Source of the DNA: Phycisphaerae bacterium
GTDB taxonomy: Bacteria > Planctomycetota > Phycisphaerae > Sedimentisphaerales > Anaerobacaceae
DNA: 33,840 nt
Assembly: GCA_003553245.1 (NCBI GenBank)
Contig: PWDX01000017.1
Span: forward strand, 1-33,840
Reading direction: 5' to 3'
This document shows, piece by piece, positions 3,123 to 16,449 of the stretch. Numbering within the stretch: the first letter of the stretch is position 1; each line of letters opens with the position of its first letter. A program made the translations under genes and the position numbers. The notes under the pieces were generated by a model. It searched no databases, had not been told where the DNA came from, and saw only the letters and a program-made list of their open reading frames with translations.

Positions 3123-3509
3123 ATGGCCGAAAACGAAAAATCCGAAAAAAAACTGATTATCGATGAGGACTGGAAAAAACAGGCCCAGCAGGAAAAGCAA
3201 AAGCTCGCAAACGAAGCGCAAAAAGACCAGAAACAGGCTCAACCTGAAGAACAAGGAAAACAACCTCTGCCGCCGGCTAATTTCCATTCTCTGGCCAGCA
3301 TGCTTGCAACACAGGCGTTTTATGCGATGGGCCTGCTTCAGCTCGAAGGTCAGGAGCCAGTAAAAGACCTTAATATGGCAAAATATAACATCGATCTGCT
3401 TGAAGTGCTGCAGGAAAAAACCAAGGGCAATCTCTCCGACGAAGAGTCCAAGGCTCTGGAAGACACTCTTTCCCAGCTTAAAATGGCATATGTTAAAATA
3501 GCCGGATAA
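3123..3509 (+). CDS. DUF1844 family protein
   Basis: A 128-residue soluble protein. The first half is a charged Lys/Glu/Gln-rich region (1-55) likely to be disordered or coiled coil. The second half is the DUF1844 domain: FHSLASMLATQAFYAMGLL, then DLNMAKYNIDLLEVLQEKTKGNL and an amphipathic helix to the end. The family is common in Planctomycetes and other Gram-negatives and its function is unknown. A strong ribosome binding site (AAAGGAG) precedes the ATG. It sits 23 bases after smpB and 12 bases before trpC, so co-transcription is likely. Confidence 0.85.
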   Translation: MAENEKSEKKLIIDEDWKKQAQQEKQKLANEAQKDQKQAQPEEQGKQPLPPANFHSLASMLATQAFYAMGLLQLEGQEPVKDLNMAKYNIDLLEVLQEKTKGNLSDEESKALEDTLSQLKMAYVKIAG

Positions 3510-3521
3510 TGGGTTCTTACA

Positions 3522-4328
3522 GTGCAGACAATACTGCAAACTATAATAGAGAACAAACAACGGGAACTACAGCATCTAAAGCCCAAAACGAGCATAGAGC
3601 AGTTCCGCGAGAAAATCGCGCAGATGCCTCGCTGCCGAAACTTCTACCAGGCCGTAACAAAAAAGAACCCTCGCGCGATTAATGTCATCGCCGAAATCAA
3701 AAAGGCCTCGCCCTCGGCTGGTATTATCCGCGCGGACTTCGATCCGGTCGAAATCGCCAAAATCTATCAGGACTGCGGCGCCGACGCCATAAGCGTTTTA
3801 ACCGACGAAAAATACTTCCACGGCCGACTCGAATATATCCAACAGGTCAAACAGGCGGTAAATTTACCCATACTTCGCAAAGACTTCATTATCGACCCGT
3901 GGCAGATTTACGAAGCCCGCGCCGCCGGAGCCGACGCGATTTTGCTAATTGCCGAAGCCCTAAAGCCCGGCGAGCTTATGGATATGATTATAACAGCTTC
4001 AGAGCTTACGCTGACAGTGTTACTGGAAGTCCACGAGGCCGACTCGCTGCTGGCGGTGCGCAGTCTGATCGATTTTCCCAAGAGCGGCTCAACGATACTC
4101 GGCATTAACAACCGCAATTTGAAAACTATGGAGGTTGACCTTAAAACCACCGCAAGGTTGATTGAACTTCTCGAGGAAAAAAAGCCGGTCGTTACAGAAA
4201 GCGGAATACGAAACCATCGCGATGTAAACAAAATGAAGAGATTCGGCGTATCTGCTATACTGATAGGCCAGAGTCTATGTCAACAACAGGACATCAAAGA
4301 AAAATTTACAGAACTTTTCGAGATATGA
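3522..4328 (+). CDS. trpC: Indole-3-glycerol phosphate synthase
   Basis: TrpC closes the indole ring of tryptophan, converting CdRP to indole-3-glycerol phosphate. The 268-residue single-domain protein has the family motifs: VIAEIKKASPSAG (55-67, with the active-site Glu and Lys), a Lys in LRKDFIIDPWQI (118-129), EARAAGADAILLI, LLEVH, GINNRNL and ESGI near the end. It is not fused to TrpF. The start is GTG at 3522 with a poor ribosome binding site; it places the N-terminal helix (TILQTIIENKQREL) at normal length. No other trp genes are in the window. The stop overlaps the next gene's start as ATGA. Confidence 0.95.
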   Translation: MQTILQTIIENKQRELQHLKPKTSIEQFREKIAQMPRCRNFYQAVTKKNPRAINVIAEIKKASPSAGIIRADFDPVEIAKIYQDCGADAISVLTDEKYFHGRLEYIQQVKQAVNLPILRKDFIIDPWQIYEARAAGADAILLIAEALKPGELMDMIITASELTLTVLLEVHEADSLLAVRSLIDFPKSGSTILGINNRNLKTMEVDLKTTARLIELLEEKKPVVTESGIRNHRDVNKMKRFGVSAILIGQSLCQQQDIKEKFTELFEI

Positions 4329-9438: not shown

Positions 9439-10029
9439 TTAATGAACTGCCGGGCCTTGTGCGGGACCTTCGGACGGCAGATTTTCCTGTATAACAGCCG
9501 CGGCCTCGTTGTAAGTATCCACAAGGTTATTTATGGACGAGGCAAGTTCGCTGACAGCGTTCTCGAGCTGCGCACCATCGGCCTGCTGAAGCTGGCTCAG
9601 GTGGTCGCGAGCGACTTGCAGTCCTGCGGACAGTTCCTCGTAGTAAGGCTCGAATTCACTTTCGACTTGCAGTTGGGACGCAATCTGCTGCAAATCGCGC
9701 ATGGCATTTTCCAATTCGGCAATCTGCTGCTGTCCCTGGGTGACATACTGCTGCCTTTGGGCATCATCTGTGGTGGCCGCCCCAAACTGATCGTCCGGCT
9801 GCTGCTGGTGCTGTTCCTGCTGCGGCTGAATCTGCTGGTCCTGAGGCTGAACCGGCTGCTGTTGTTGCTCCATTGGCTGTTGCTGCTGCTGCATTGGTTC
9901 CTGCTGGGGCTGTTGCTGCCACTGCGGTTCTTGCTCCCAGGGATCCCGCTGCTCCTGACAACCGGCCAACAGCAAAAAAGCACCACCGGCCAAAAATGGT
10001 AAAATTATTTTGAGTTTCTTGAGTTTCAT
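9439..10029 (-). CDS. Gln-rich lipoprotein with a helical C-terminal domain
   Basis: The start at ATG 10029 is fixed by a strong GGAGG five bases upstream; the longer frame from 10041 is less likely. The 196-residue protein has a lipobox LLAGC (Cys24), a low-complexity Gln/Pro region (about 27-90) built from CAG/CAA-type codons, and a helical domain (about 95-185). The helical part aligns without gaps to the next lipoprotein upstream (10270-10800): about 17 identities in 56 positions by eye, sharing GQxQIxxLE, an EF pair and an LQxAxxxL stretch. Function unknown. A 115-base gap separates it from the isomerase gene. Confidence 0.75.
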   Translation of the reverse strand: MKLKKLKIILPFLAGGAFLLLAGCQEQRDPWEQEPQWQQQPQQEPMQQQQQPMEQQQQPVQPQDQQIQPQQEQHQQQPDDQFGAATTDDAQRQQYVTQGQQQIAELENAMRDLQQIASQLQVESEFEPYYEELSAGLQVARDHLSQLQQADGAQLENAVSELASSINNLVDTYNEAAAVIQENLPSEGPAQGPAVH

Positions 10030-10176
10030 AAAAACCTCCAATTACCTGTATAACTGACTCGAGTAACTCATTCACTTAACTTCTTGAATTCCATGTAAAG
10101 CTCTGCAAAAACAAATCGTAGAACCTCTGCCGACACAGCTCAGAGCCTGCAACTTTGTCGTTTGCAAATACGGATG

Positions 10177-10269: not shown

Positions 10270-10800
10270 TTACAAGTCCAACTCTTCAAGATCAGGCTGC
10301 ATGTGCGACCTGACTTCTTCGGAGGCCTGCTGATACAGTTCGATAAGTCTGTCCATCGTTTCGTGGAACTGCTCATGTTTCTCCGGCCAGGTTTCGCGGC
10401 TGGCCTGTTCGACCTGCTCGAGCAACATTTTTGCCTCTTGCAGCTTTTGCGTTATTGCGTCCCGATGAGCGGCAAATTCAGCCTGTATGTCACGATTTTC
10501 TGCTACCTCTGTAAGGCTTTCCAGAGACTGTTCGAGGTCATCAATCTGCATTTGTCCCAGCGAAATAAAAGATTCCTTTTCCTGCTGGAAGTCAAATTCG
10601 TCGATAGGATCGTCATCGGCATCCTCATCGTAATCATAAGACTGCTCGTCTGTCTCAGCATCAAAGTCATCCGACTGGTCAAAATACGGCTCTTCGTCCG
10701 TGAGAATATCATCCTCAAACGCCGTATCATCTTCACAGCCGACCAACAGTAAAGCCGCCATAAGAAAAACAGGCAATACACTCCATTTGAATTTTTTCAT
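10270..10800 (-). CDS. Acidic lipoprotein, paralogue of the 9439-10029 lipoprotein
   Basis: A 176-residue predicted lipoprotein with lipobox LLVGC (Cys22). Residues 23-70 are extremely acidic (Asp/Glu with Tyr and Phe), and residues 72-170 are helical with heptad-like spacing. The helical domain matches the neighbouring Gln-rich lipoprotein (see that entry), while the linkers differ: acidic here, Gln/Pro-rich there. No known family is recognised. It lies 17 bases after the 69-residue lipoprotein gene and 240 bases before its paralogue, that gap holding a strong hairpin. Confidence 0.75.
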   Translation of the reverse strand: MKKFKWSVLPVFLMAALLLVGCEDDTAFEDDILTDEEPYFDQSDDFDAETDEQSYDYDEDADDDPIDEFDFQQEKESFISLGQMQIDDLEQSLESLTEVAENRDIQAEFAAHRDAITQKLQEAKMLLEQVEQASRETWPEKHEQFHETMDRLIELYQQASEEVRSHMQPDLEELDL

Positions 10801-10817: not shown

Positions 10818-11027
10818 TTAAAAGTCGAAATCATCGTCCGGAAAGTCTCCATTATCCGGCGCCTCGTCGATATCATCGTCGGGCATTTCAAAGGGATCCG
10901 GCTCAACAGGCTCCTCTGTCGGCGGTTGCTCAAACTGGGGATCTTCCTCTGGACAACCGGCGACAAACAGAATGCCGACTATGAACAGTGGTAAAATCAT
11001 CGCAATTAGCCATTTGTGAGTTTTCAT
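10818..11027 (-). CDS. Small acidic lipoprotein, tandem copy 2
   Basis: The start ATG 11027 has AAGGAG eight bases upstream. The 69-residue product has a signal starting MKTHKWLIAMILPLF and lipobox FVAGC (Cys25), then a short Pro/Glu/Asp-rich chain ending PDDDFDF. It is a close copy of the 68-residue product encoded just upstream at 11053-11259: the signal, PTEEP, DPFEMPDDD and the C-terminal DDDFDF are kept, and the DNA including the ribosome binding site is similar. With about 44 acidic residues-rich mature positions there is no room for a classical enzyme domain. Function unknown. Confidence 0.7.
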   Translation of the reverse strand: MKTHKWLIAMILPLFIVGILFVAGCPEEDPQFEQPPTEEPVEPDPFEMPDDDIDEAPDNGDFPDDDFDF

Positions 11028-11052
11028 ATTTGTTCTCCTTAAGAAAAAATGG

Positions 11053-11259
11053 TTAAAAGTCGAAATCATCATCCGGAATGCCTTCATCATCCGGCGCCTC
11101 ATCGAAATCATCATCGGGCATTTCAAAAGGATCCTGCTCCATAGGCTCCTCTGTAGGCGGTGCATCAAACTGGGGATCTTCCTCACAACCGGCGACAAAC
11201 ACAAAACCGGCTATGAACAGTGGTAAAATCATCGCAATTAACCATTTGTTACTCTTCAT
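11053..11259 (-). CDS. Small acidic lipoprotein, tandem copy 1
   Basis: The start ATG 11259 has AAGGAG upstream; a longer frame from 11316 lacks support. The 68-residue protein has the signal MKSNKWLIAMILPLF, lipobox FVAGC (Cys25), and a mature part almost free of hydrophobic residues apart from Phe and Met, ending DDDFDF. It is the first gene of the minus-strand lipoprotein run, and a possible promoter lies upstream (11341-11313). About three quarters of its residues match the second copy by eye, so the duplication is probably fairly recent or both are under selection. Confidence 0.7.
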   Translation of the reverse strand: MKSNKWLIAMILPLFIAGFVFVAGCEEDPQFDAPPTEEPMEQDPFEMPDDDFDEAPDDEGIPDDDFDF

Positions 11260-11312
11260 AATCGTTCTCCTTAAAAAACAACATTTCGATTTCCTAAAAA
11301 CCGTTACATTAA

Positions 11313-11341
11313 ACACTAATGAATTATTCCCCGCCTGGCAA
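11313..11341 (-). promoter_or_regulatory. Candidate promoter for the lipoprotein cluster
   Basis: On the minus strand TTGCCA (11341-11336) and TAGTGT (11318-11313) are 17 bases apart, 54 bases before the first lipoprotein start. The match to the sigma-70 consensus is moderate. Confidence 0.35.
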
Positions 11342-12406: not shown

Positions 12407-13357
12407 ATGGGTATATTCTCGAAAACAAAGGATTTTTTCGCAAGCAGACTCGGCAAGACACGCAAAAAGATAACCGGTTCGCTGGCTTTTCTGGTCGGCG
12501 GGCGCAAAATTGACGACGACATAATCGACCAGATAGAGGAAATCCTCATCAGCGACGACATCGGCATCGCGACGACTCGGAAGATAGTCGAGGACCTGCG
12601 AACGGCCTACCGAAATAAACAAATCACCGAAACCGAACAGATAATCCCGTTTCTAAAAGAGGATATGAAGCGATACTGGCCGCAGCAGGACAGACAGCTA
12701 AAACGCGCCCAGCAGGGCCCGACCGTGATACTCGTAGCCGGTGTAAACGGAACCGGCAAGACCACCAGCATCGCCAAACTTGCCTACACCCTCAAGCAAA
12801 ACGACAACAGCGTTATCGTGGCCGCCTGTGACACTTTCCGCGCCGCGGCTGTGGAGCAGCTTACAATCTGGGCAGAGCGAATCGATGTCCAGATTGTCAA
12901 ACACCAGATGGGCGCAGACCCGGCGGCGGTGGCTTTTGACGCCTGCCAGGCCGCTTTGGCGCGAAACGCGGATTATCTGATACTCGATACCGCCGGCAGA
13001 CTACACACGCAGAAAGACCTGATGAAACAGCTTACAAAAATACGGGATGTCGCTGCCAAGAAAATCCCCGGCGCTCCGCACGAGGTCATACTCGTACTCG
13101 ACGCGACCACCGGCCAGAACGCCATCGCACAGGCCCAGCTTTTCACCGAGGCGATAAATGTAACCGGCATATTCCTCGCCAAGCTCGACGGCACAGCACG
13201 CGGCGGTATAGTAATCGCCGTCAAAGACCAGCTCGATATTCCAGTCAAATTCGTAGGCCTGGGCGAAAAACCAGAAGCAATCGCCGAGTTCGACCCCGAT
13301 AAATTCGTCGAAGCGCTTTTCAGCACCGAAGAAACCGCCGCCGAGACCGAAACATAG
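12407..13357 (+). CDS. ftsY: Signal recognition particle receptor FtsY
   Basis: FtsY is the membrane-side GTPase that receives SRP-ribosome complexes during co-translational targeting. Start ATG 12407 has AGGAG five bases upstream; a longer frame from 12362 would add 15 unsupported residues. The 316-residue protein has the N domain (about 1-100) and the GTPase G domain: P-loop GVNGTGKTT (112-120), DTFRAAAVEQL (142-152), DTAGR (194-198), and AKLDGTARGG. The long acidic A domain of enterobacterial FtsY is missing; MGIFSKTKDFF at the N-terminus may form the lipid-binding helix. A terminator follows. Confidence 0.95.
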   Translation: MGIFSKTKDFFASRLGKTRKKITGSLAFLVGGRKIDDDIIDQIEEILISDDIGIATTRKIVEDLRTAYRNKQITETEQIIPFLKEDMKRYWPQQDRQLKRAQQGPTVILVAGVNGTGKTTSIAKLAYTLKQNDNSVIVAACDTFRAAAVEQLTIWAERIDVQIVKHQMGADPAAVAFDACQAALARNADYLILDTAGRLHTQKDLMKQLTKIRDVAAKKIPGAPHEVILVLDATTGQNAIAQAQLFTEAINVTGIFLAKLDGTARGGIVIAVKDQLDIPVKFVGLGEKPEAIAEFDPDKFVEALFSTEETAAETET

Positions 13358-13363
13358 GCACAA

Positions 13364-13396
13364 AAAAAGCCCACGACACGAAGCCGCGGGCTTTTT
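13364..13396. terminator. Bidirectional terminator between ftsY and the Cys-rich gene
   Basis: AAAAAGCCC (13364-13372) and GGGCTTTTT (13388-13396) form a 9-bp stem with A/T runs on both sides, placed between two converging stops. Confidence 0.85.
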
Positions 13397-13421
13397 ATAA
13401 TCAAATAACGCTCAAAAACCG

Positions 13422-13739
13422 CTATTTGCAGCTTTTGCCGCAGGTTTTGGCCTTGCAGCAGTCACATTCACAGCCGTCGCAGGTGCATTTTTCATCGCCA
13501 CTGCAACATTTTACACAGGTGCAGTCATCGCAACTGCAACATTGCGCTTGCTCGACTGAACAGCCCTGACTCACACCGACAGCCTTATCGCAAGGGTTGG
13601 ACGGTGCTTGTTCCGGCGCCGGGCAACATCGGGACAATGCTGTACCGTCTGTCGCCGTTGCCGGGCTGTAAACGGAAAATGCTGTGGTGATAAGAATAAA
13701 CGCTGCTACTACTGTCAGAATCATAATTGTTGATCTCAT
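13422..13739 (-). CDS. Exported cysteine-rich, metallothionein-like protein
   Basis: A 105-residue protein with an N-terminal signal (1-30, hydrophobic MILTVVAAFILITTAF) and 19 cysteines in the mature part. Sixteen of them fall within residues 60-104 in CC, CxC and CxxC groupings (CCSCDDCTCVKCC, CTCDGCECDCC), as in metallothioneins, but no known metallothionein family signature could be confirmed. Likely role: metal binding or a disulfide-rich shield outside the cytoplasm (inference). The ATG has AAGGAG upstream. It is downstream of and co-directional with another Cys-rich exported protein (13809-14141), 69 bases away. Confidence 0.75.
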   Translation of the reverse strand: MRSTIMILTVVAAFILITTAFSVYSPATATDGTALSRCCPAPEQAPSNPCDKAVGVSQGCSVEQAQCCSCDDCTCVKCCSGDEKCTCDGCECDCCKAKTCGKSCK

Positions 13740-13808
13740 TGGAAATCTCCTTGATTTTTAAGGTTGTAATTTTCAGAATTTCAAAAAAATGCGCAGGAAA
13801 GTTCCGGA

Positions 13809-14141
13809 TCAACACAAGAAAACGCATATAAAAGCGTTTAAATCCTCGGCGAGTACTTGATATCTTGAAAAAGCGAGTTTAACGGCGATGGGTTTAACAA
13901 ATTCTAAGCTATTGTTCGCAGCGATTGGCAGGTTTACTTGAGGCACAAGCTGTCGGATTTCGACAGTTGCCTGAACAGGCTTTTCCGTGTTGCAGAAACA
14001 ATGGTCTCCGTCCGGCCTTTCGCCGCAGCAGGAACGCTCCATCTCTCGATAACAGCAGGGACTGGCAGCTTCGGTGCAAGCCTCAACAACAGGTGAAATA
14101 CTGCCAAATAATACTAATATCGCCGCGGACACCCTGAACAT
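13809..14141 (-). CDS. Exported cysteine-containing small protein
   Basis: A 110-residue protein with a signal peptide (about 1-21), then a Cys cluster (Cys22, 29, 30, 38, 39, 48, 50; pattern CTEAASPCC, CCG, CFC), and two more cysteines at the very end (106, 110). The remainder has no recognised domain. It is followed by the metallothionein-like gene on the same strand. A sequence resembling an operator lies just upstream (14182-14199). Metal or redox function is an inference from the cysteines. The start has AAAGG eight bases upstream. Confidence 0.65.
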   Translation of the reverse strand: MFRVSAAILVLFGSISPVVEACTEAASPCCYREMERSCCGERPDGDHCFCNTEKPVQATVEIRQLVPQVNLPIAANNSLEFVKPIAVKLAFSRYQVLAEDLNAFICVFLC

Positions 14142-14181
14142 AAGTCAAACCTTTTAATCTCCTTGCCAACCACCAAACATA

Positions 14182-14199
14182 GCAAACCTGTAGGTTTGC
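14182..14199. promoter_or_regulatory. Inverted repeat upstream of the Cys-rich genes, possible operator
   Basis: GCAAACC-TGTA-GGTTTGC is a perfect 7-bp inverted repeat with a 4-base spacer, 41-58 bases before the first Cys-rich start. Position and symmetry suit a dimeric repressor or activator site. The regulator is not in the window. Confidence 0.4.
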
Positions 14200-14253
14200 A
14201 ATTAAATTAATACCCAAAAAACTTTTGGAAGTTCAAAAAAAACCAAAAAGCGC

Positions 14254-14289
14254 ATAAAAAAAGCCCGCGACAATATCGCCGCGGGCTTT
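14254..14289 (-). terminator. Terminator of the phosphofructokinase gene
   Basis: On the minus strand AAAGCCCGCG (14289-14280) pairs with CGCGGGCTTT (14269-14260), followed by a further T-run. It lies 26 bases after the stop. Confidence 0.88.
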
Positions 14290-14314
14290 GAATTGTTGAA
14301 AAAATCCCGAAAAT

Positions 14315-15526
14315 TTATACTTTTGCGTTATTCGCCAGGTAAACCGTTTTGGGAAGCTCGCCGATAAGCGGGGCGGCGTATTCAACAAACGCCGGCGTAA
14401 TATCGTTGCCCTCGGCGTTGATAAATTCATCAGGCATCGATTTTGTCTTTTCGGCGACATTTGCAAGCTCCGTGCGGAAAAGCTCGACACCGTAATTGGC
14501 GCCGTTGCCGGTGCGTTTCATCGCGACCGAACCGCTTTCGTATTCCATCGCGTATTCCACAGCCCTCCGACCGCAGGCCCGCGCCTCTGCCGCGTCGGTC
14601 GGAGACTGAAAACCGGCGAAACTTCTTTGCAGATAGCCGAAGGTGTCCGCGCGTACGCGCTTGGCAAAGCCGGCCTGTTTGACCTTACCTGCCAGATAGT
14701 CCGCCAGATCGCCGCTGCCGGAAAGCTGGATATTGCCGTGAGCGTCCTTTTCGCTGTCTTCTTTGATTCGGGCAGCCCAGGTTACGCCGTTTTCATCGCA
14801 GATGCCCTCACTGACCGCTACTGCGCAGCGACCAAATTTCTCATAAACTTTTTCAATATCCGAACAGAATTTCTCCATCGAAAAACCTCGCTCGGGAACA
14901 TAAATCAAATGCGGCCCGTCATCTTCTCGAACTCTTCCAAGCCCTGCCGCAGCCGTCAAAAAACCGGCGTGCCTGCCCATAATCACATCGATCTTGATGC
15001 CTGGCAGAGCCCGATTGTCAAGGTCATCGCCCATACAAGCAGAAGCGACAAACCTGCCCGCCGTTCCATAGCCCGGACAGTGATCGGTAACCAAAAGGTC
15101 GTTGTCAACCGTCTTGGGAATATGGAAAGCCCGCAGGTCATAGCCGACCTTATCGGCCAGAGAATTGATGATATGGGCCGTGTTGGCCGAATCGTTGCCG
15201 CCGATGTAGAAGAAATAATGAACATTACGCTTTTCGAACACCTCGAAAATCTTTTTGCAATACTCCTCGTCCGGCTTATCCCTGCTCGAACCAAGCGCCG
15301 ACGAGGGCGATGCTGCCAGTAAATCCAAAGTCTTGGCGTCCAGCCCCTTAAGGTCAACAAACTCATCCTTAACCATACCCTGCACAGCGTGAACCGCGCC
15401 GTATAGATTTTCAATTTCCGAATGTTTTACCGCCTCTTCAATCACCCCTGCCAGCGAAGCGTTAATTACGGCCGTAGGACCGCCGGACTGACCGACTACC
15501 GCGTTTGCTTTTGGTGCATTTGCCAT
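14315..15526 (-). CDS. PPi-type 6-phosphofructokinase
   Basis: The enzyme phosphorylates fructose 6-phosphate to the 1,6-bisphosphate. Start ATG 15526 (MANAPKANAVVGQSGGPTAV) is preferred over a TTG at 15556. In the 403-residue protein, PKTVDND (137-143, Lys instead of the Gly of PGTIDND) is the mark of diphosphate-using or mixed members, and GGND (109-112) replaces the GGDG of ATP enzymes. MGRHAGF and the sugar-phosphate binding segment GYLQRSFAG also fit. Whether PPi or ATP is the donor needs an assay. A sigma-70-like promoter precedes it and a terminator follows, so it is likely monocistronic. Confidence 0.88.
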   Translation of the reverse strand: MANAPKANAVVGQSGGPTAVINASLAGVIEEAVKHSEIENLYGAVHAVQGMVKDEFVDLKGLDAKTLDLLAASPSSALGSSRDKPDEEYCKKIFEVFEKRNVHYFFYIGGNDSANTAHIINSLADKVGYDLRAFHIPKTVDNDLLVTDHCPGYGTAGRFVASACMGDDLDNRALPGIKIDVIMGRHAGFLTAAAGLGRVREDDGPHLIYVPERGFSMEKFCSDIEKVYEKFGRCAVAVSEGICDENGVTWAARIKEDSEKDAHGNIQLSGSGDLADYLAGKVKQAGFAKRVRADTFGYLQRSFAGFQSPTDAAEARACGRRAVEYAMEYESGSVAMKRTGNGANYGVELFRTELANVAEKTKSMPDEFINAEGNDITPAFVEYAAPLIGELPKTVYLANNAKV

Positions 15527-15589
15527 TTTTGATGCTTCTCCATAAAAAACTACCAAATTTCATTTCACAATAATATATCGAGAGCGAGT

Positions 15590-15763: not shown

Positions 15764-16144
15764 ATGACCAATATTTCCAGACAAACAGAGTTTTGGCTTA
15801 AAAGCGCCGATGAAGATTTTGATGCGGGCAGGCATCTTGTTGAAGCTGCCAAGTATCGCCATGGATTGTTTTTTATTCATCTGGCATTGGAAAAAATGCT
15901 GAAGGCACATTTTTGCAAAAATAACAAAGCACTGCCGCCAAAAATCCACAATCTCAGCAGGTTGTATGAAGTGGCGGGACTTGATGAAAACGAAGAAAAA
16001 CAAAACATTCTGGCAGCGCTTAACCGTTTTTGTCTGGAAGGCAGATACCCTGAAGATTGGCCGGCTATGCCGGATGACAAAGAAGCTAAACGATATCTTG
16101 AAATGGCTCAACAGGCGGCAAAATGGCTCAAGCAGCAATTATAG
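15764..16144 (+). CDS. HEPN domain protein (putative toxin of a HEPN/MNT pair)
   Basis: The 126-residue, all-helical protein fits the HEPN family: helix 1 WLKSADEDFDAGRHLVE, helix 2 RHGLFFIHLALEKMLKAHF (32-50), the IHNLSRL stretch (61-67), and a last helix after RYPED (94-98) with AKRYLEMAQQAAKWL. Many HEPN partners of MNT proteins are RNases with a C-terminal RX4-6H motif. Here the only R-x6-H (R32 to H39) is in helix 2, so a classical active site is not evident. It overlaps the MNT gene by 22 bases. Toxin role is inferred from the pairing. Confidence 0.85.
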   Translation: MTNISRQTEFWLKSADEDFDAGRHLVEAAKYRHGLFFIHLALEKMLKAHFCKNNKALPPKIHNLSRLYEVAGLDENEEKQNILAALNRFCLEGRYPEDWPAMPDDKEAKRYLEMAQQAAKWLKQQL

Positions 16145-16449
16145 AATCTGTTCGAAAATATTTGAATCATCTCAGACAGAACGGCTTTAATGTTAGTTTT
16201 GGTGTTGTCTTTGGCTCGCAGACCGCCGGAACCGCTTCCGAATTAAGCGATATAGACCTGGTAGTGGTTTCTCCGGACTTCGACAAAAAAGTTGAATGCT
16301 GCACCTTGGACAAACTCTGGCAACTTGCTGGTCGCACCGACAGCAGGATTGAGCCGATCCCTTGTGGTCTGGAGCGGTGGCAGAAAGATGATTATTCACC
16401 GGTAATTGAGATAGCGCGAAAACAAGGCTCAGTGGTGAAATTAAATTAG
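16123..16449 (+). CDS. Minimal nucleotidyltransferase (MNT) domain protein, putative antitoxin
   Basis: The 108-residue protein carries the complete nucleotidyltransferase signature GS-x10-DxD (GS at 31-32, D43 and D45, in VVFGSQTAGT and LSDIDLVVVS). In type VII toxin-antitoxin pairs such proteins add AMP to the HEPN partner and switch it off. The C-terminal part (ERWQKDDYSPVIEIARKQGSVV) is typical of stand-alone MNTs. Translation is probably coupled to the HEPN gene by the 22-base overlap. It might alternatively be part of a non-toxic regulatory pair. Confidence 0.85.
   Translation: MAQAAIIESVRKYLNHLRQNGFNVSFGVVFGSQTAGTASELSDIDLVVVSPDFDKKVECCTLDKLWQLAGRTDSRIEPIPCGLERWQKDDYSPVIEIARKQGSVVKLN

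Follow-up and report, generated by a model that had tools for sequence, protein, structure and literature searches.

A kept pair of cysteine-rich genes in a Phycisphaerae bacterium: a predicted exported metallothionein-like protein and its putative leader

The known bacterial metallothioneins are described, at least in one account, as cytosolic (PMC8790569), and PmtA is reported to be located on the cell surface (PMC11237414). In Rhodobacter capsulatus CutF and Bordetella CruR, leader proteins with cysteine motifs and export signals, translation of the leader serves to sense copper and to gate the gene that follows (PMC9973294, PMC9426467). The filters published for CutF-like genes ask for a product of <150 aa with a signal peptide and a PP motif in the last 15 residues, and for a same-strand gene within 1000 nt (PMC9973294). 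Given the existence of CutF and CruR, a leader of the kind that we propose here for a planctomycete gene has a precedent. From our point of view, the two genes described below, A and B, may form a two-gene unit in which B is an exported metal buffer and A a leader that gates B, a reading to which we assign a probability of about 45%.

The pair lies in a stretch of 33,840 nucleotides (the window; contig PWDX01000017.1 of assembly GCA_003553245.1) from a sediment-dwelling Phycisphaerae bacterium with a genome of 2.39 Mb that is 92% complete. Gene A (P0002, 13809..14141) and gene B (P0001, 13422..13739) are two ORFs read directly from the DNA, both on the minus strand, with a pfp-type phosphofructokinase gene (14315..15529, minus strand) as the conserved upstream flank and ftsY (12407..13357, plus strand) as the conserved, convergent downstream flank. 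A terminator-like hairpin after pfp (14260..14289, minus strand), consisting of a 13-bp stem and a T run, splits pfp from the A-B unit, a weak terminator-like hairpin is found at the end of B (13413..13437, minus strand), and the view of A and B as an operon-like pair is supported. The nearest relatives of the window's Pfp protein come from Sedimentisphaerales/Phycisphaerae MAGs of the Planctomycetota (69-75% identity), and pfp and ftsY point towards each other in every one of the 13 relatives for which the locus yielded both genes. The gap between them, 13358-14314 in the window, ranges from 17 bp to 5.3 kb across related MAGs (L039-L065) and holds differing genes; A-B occupies a variable insertion site, and its neighbours therefore tell little about its function. 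The original prediction had named orthologous pairs beside metal efflux genes as a check. An orthologous pair does exist in L044, whereas the expected neighbours do not: neither a metal efflux gene nor any other metal gene adjoins the pair at any of the three loci concerned (the window, L044 and L151).

Elsewhere in the window, a HEPN gene (PF05168) and a nucleotidyltransferase gene (PF01909) overlap at 15764-16449 (plus strand), an arrangement as in HEPN-MNT toxin-antitoxin pairs. Furthermore, a tandem of two near-alike small acidic lipoprotein-like ORFs (WLIAMILPLFI...EEDPQF...PDDDFDF; 10818-11316, minus strand) adjoins a third acidic ORF at 10270-10800; the two of these three that were compared with Pfam have no match there.

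Gene B encodes a protein of 105 aa with 19 cysteines (positions 38, 39, 50, 60, 67, 68, 70, 73, 75, 78, 79, 85, 87, 90, 92, 94, 95, 100 and 104). The original prediction that 16 of these fall within 45 residues was borne out, as was the position of both ORFs, the stretch being residues 60-104 with its CC, CxC and CxxC groups. Cysteine makes up 18.1% of B, by far the largest share among the 156 ORFs of 60 aa or longer in the window; the runner-up reaches 11.5%, and the ORFs next in rank look like spurious frames. A Shine-Dalgarno sequence (AAGGAG, 13747..13752, minus strand) precedes the ATG by 7 nt. We infer export of B from its signal-like N-terminus, which has an AxA-type site around A28-A30; the signal peptides of A and B were called visually and with the help of a hydrophobicity rule, and by the same rule a signal-like N-terminus is common to B and its counterparts B' in L044 and B'' in L151. 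Searches of B against Pfam and NCBIfam gave no match at E<=1, PF02069-type metallothioneins included, and those against PDB sequences gave none above noise. The AlphaFold2 models of the two proteins (pLDDT 36 and 49) showed no fold and were too poor for a fold search, and the low-confidence model of B lacks a long helix beyond the signal peptide. Judged from its sequence, B resembles a metallothionein in its working, yet it stands outside the known bacterial metallothionein families, and an exported metal-thiolate role is, in our own judgement, likely.

The pair is kept in L044 (genome G032), a Sedimentisphaerales MAG of the same family and another genus, where A'-B' was the sole ortholog pair found by scanning named pfp loci for Cys-rich ORFs. 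Order and orientation are as in the window, namely pfp, A', B' and convergent ftsY, with extra genes inserted. B' is 42% identical to B and retains the core CCxCx2-3CxCx2CCxGx3CxCx2CxCDCC; the two proteins have 15 cysteines in common, eight of them encoded by different codons, and codons differ at 18 of 33 identical residues overall. Retention of these cysteines despite eight changed codons implies that selection acts on the protein, and the codon changes at conserved residues rule out that B is a chance or antisense ORF. A' has diverged from A (only 30% identity; different codons at 19 of 33 identical residues), and the two end in corresponding tails, LNVLLCVFLC in A' and LNAFICVFLC in A, where the tail runs to the stop codon (consensus LNxx(I/L)CVFLC, codons differing). 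As the E values of pairwise BLAST are weak (0.005 for A vs A' and 8e-4 for B vs B'), the orthology rests jointly on synteny, order, tail and cysteine spacing. Since the cysteine spacing is kept and the pair recurs, the objection raised at the outset, namely that the spacing might lack conservation in orthologues, falls away.

A third pair was found in L151, a genome of another family within the class, at 3192-3917. This locus was reached by a Cys-codon pattern search that matched B'' alone, an exported (signal-like) protein with CCC, CDC and CDCC runs. Directly upstream lies A'', a signal-like protein of 132 aa with CC...CC...CNLCVCC and a Pro-rich end (RPDPHPPKSA), at a distance of about 81 nt from B''. 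A'' has PP inside its last 15 residues and passes all of the CutF-like filters (PMC9973294). As A'' played no part in the search, the pairing in L151 represents independent evidence. Homology of A'' and B'' to A and B is not demonstrable by sequence comparison, and the shared architecture may be convergent. B'' has no convincing relatives among 150 genomes of the family of L151, and neither A'' nor B'' has matches in plasmids. The L151 pair adjoins prpB/citrate synthase-like genes.

Overall, the A-B unit is rare and very patchy as far as sequence searches tell. Pairs of neighbouring small ORFs combining a signal-like N-terminus with six or more mature cysteines were found only in the window, L044 and L151 within 1.2 Mb of loci, a set in which some sequences occur more than once. 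A profile search located B in 2 of 397 related genomes and brought up no further B. Single-sequence searches gave no relative at E<=1e-3, either for the two proteins in plasmids and 98-397 related genomes, or for B in GTDB contigs and A in viral contigs; matches at E<=10 were taken as noise, many of them having internal stops. As the true ortholog in G032 escaped phmmer (its E value there was 1.35), absence elsewhere is uncertain. Of 89 family genomes, 3 have the tail motif LNxx(I/L)CVFLC, one of them without a Cys-rich ORF; the tail-pattern match in G113 was rejected for want of a Cys-rich ORF. Matches to a profile of A (A1) in G047, G089 and G227 were regarded as weak, given internal stops or a long frame. 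The Cys-codon pattern search was swamped by antisense poly-Gln (TGC repeats). A lipoprotein-like ORF in the window (9439-10041, minus strand) is itself rich in Gln, and the antisense of such QQQQ runs yields spurious Cys-rich frames in pattern searches.

Gene A encodes a protein of 110 aa with nine cysteines (22, 29, 30, 38, 39, 48, 50, 106 and 110), seven of which form a CC/CxC cluster in residues 22-50 and two of which lie at the extreme C-terminus. Its N-terminus is hydrophobic and signal-like, with a cleavage site after A21 (by eye and hydrophobicity rule), in agreement with the earlier proposal that the upstream partner has a cysteine cluster behind a signal. A had no match at E<=1 in Pfam and NCBIfam, DUF2946 included; A' and A'' had none to DUF2946 at E<=5, and A and A' none to CopL models. 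With respect to the CutF-like filters, A passes on size (<150 aa), N-terminal signal and a same-strand downstream gene within 1000 nt, and, at 69 nt, the A-B gap is of the usual size for CutF-like genes (<100 nt); A', at 158 aa, is slightly above the 150-aa limit. PP in the last 15 residues is confined to A'', the PP/RAPP stalling motif being absent from A and A', and in place of the CXXC and C-terminal RAPP of CruR-type leaders A has CC and CxC groups and no RAPP. In our own judgement it is nevertheless plausible, by analogy, that A works like a CutF-type leader, though one with a different C-terminal motif.

One could alternatively imagine that A and B are both exported metal buffers or chaperones of one kind and that A has no regulatory role, given that each is Cys-rich, has a signal-like N-terminus and is encoded as part of a pair. 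We consider this unlikely, as A has fewer cysteines and a conserved hydrophobic C-terminal tail up to the stop codon, and as in each of the three pairs the Cys-rich upstream member, A in the window, comes first, which is the layout of leader-type sensors. A and B are probably not equal metal buffers, and the closer likeness of A is to CutF, CopL and CruR, which sense metal as nascent chains.

If A is a leader, it would be made first, and its cysteine cluster would sense the metal during translation and export of A. A candidate switch is a predicted RNA stem (13728..13814, minus strand), in which the stop-codon region of A (UGUUGAUC) pairs with codons 2-4 of B (GAUCAACA); it includes the stop codon of A and covers the Shine-Dalgarno sequence of B. 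A ribosome held at or near the A stop codon would open this stem, so that B would be translated. The stem has an MFE of -29.7 kcal/mol (z -2.88), with 3 of 200 shuffles equally good, and its z-score ranks third among the 31 window gene starts, two others being as low or lower. The A'-B' gap of L044 has no such stem (z +0.9), and L151 has a very stable one beginning at the A'' stop (z -5.4). Altogether, there is modest evidence that the A stop region pairs over the ribosome site of B. B itself would be exported through Sec and act as an extracytoplasmic metallothionein in the periplasm, where its clustered thiolates would bind the same soft metal that A senses, most likely Cu(I), with Zn, Cd or Ag as possibilities.

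The genome contains two Cu-type P-ATPase loci elsewhere, and one P-type ATPase combines CPC with an N-terminal GMHCASC metal-binding motif; such a CPC-type enzyme would deliver Cu(I) to the periplasm. The redox setting bears on a further explanation, namely that B (and A) are disulfide-rich secreted proteins with a structural, adhesive or antimicrobial role and not metal proteins at all. Exported cysteines usually pair oxidatively, and a catalase gene in the genome suggests some oxygen exposure. Against this, runs such as CxC, CC and CxCDCC are characteristic of metal-thiolate clusters, and a search for DsbA detected no match in the window genome at 92% completeness, as compared with matches in 8 of 14 control genomes; the lack of a detected DsbA fits free thiols in the periplasm. 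We therefore regard the disulfide explanation as quite improbable. The window also encodes a MauE-domain protein (PF07291; 4707-5702, plus strand) with a CTEC motif in its C-terminal region, possibly a thiol-redox protein. Lastly, it is highly doubtful that A and B are merely co-transcribed and co-translated and that a metal-responsive repressor, and not A, switches the unit at an inverted repeat 41 bp upstream of A (GCAAACCT-gt-AGGTTTGC, 14182..14199, with two 8-bp arms and hence a possible operator), as the genome contains a single exact copy of this palindrome, the near matches of which are not clearly above control.

Returning to A as a leader of B, the consequences would be twofold. A naturally exported metallothionein would, if true, imply that thiolates buffer metals in the periplasm, for which they would have to be kept reduced. 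Gating of B by A would further bring the Planctomycetota into the range of leader-type metal sensing; the regulated product would then be a metallothionein, and the leader would have a non-proline tail at its C-terminus. One could speculate further that the unit is a self-contained periplasmic metal-buffer module outside the known DUF2946/CutF families, in which a nascent-chain metal sensor with a new C-terminal arrest tail, LNxx(I/L)CVFLC, turns on the translation of an exported metallothionein dedicated to it, yet we hold this full reading to be rather unlikely.

Compared with the exported copper-storage proteins of the Csp1 type, B is likewise predicted to be exported, Cys-rich and a proposed metal store. 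Csp proteins are four-helix bundles with cysteines along the helices, whereas B has dense CC/CxC groups and, in its low-confidence model, no long post-signal helix. With SmtA, BmtA and PmtA (PF02069) and mycobacterial MymT, B shares its small size, very high cysteine content and CC/CxC/CxxC thiolate groups; the PF02069-type proteins are described as cytoplasmic, in contrast to B with its signal-like N-terminus, and B matches none of their models. As regards CutF, CruR and CopL, A and A' differ from the DUF2946 and CutF-like clusters in ending with LNxx(I/L)CVFLC instead of PP/RAPP and in having no HMM match, and the metallothionein-like downstream gene of A is unlike those of the CutF survey, the main text of which does not mention metallothioneins (PMC9973294). 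Like those leaders, A is short, predicted to be exported, equipped with a cysteine motif and a special C-terminus, and the first gene of its unit, and the A-B arrangement likewise combines a short gap, an exported downstream product and a possible stem over the downstream ribosome site.
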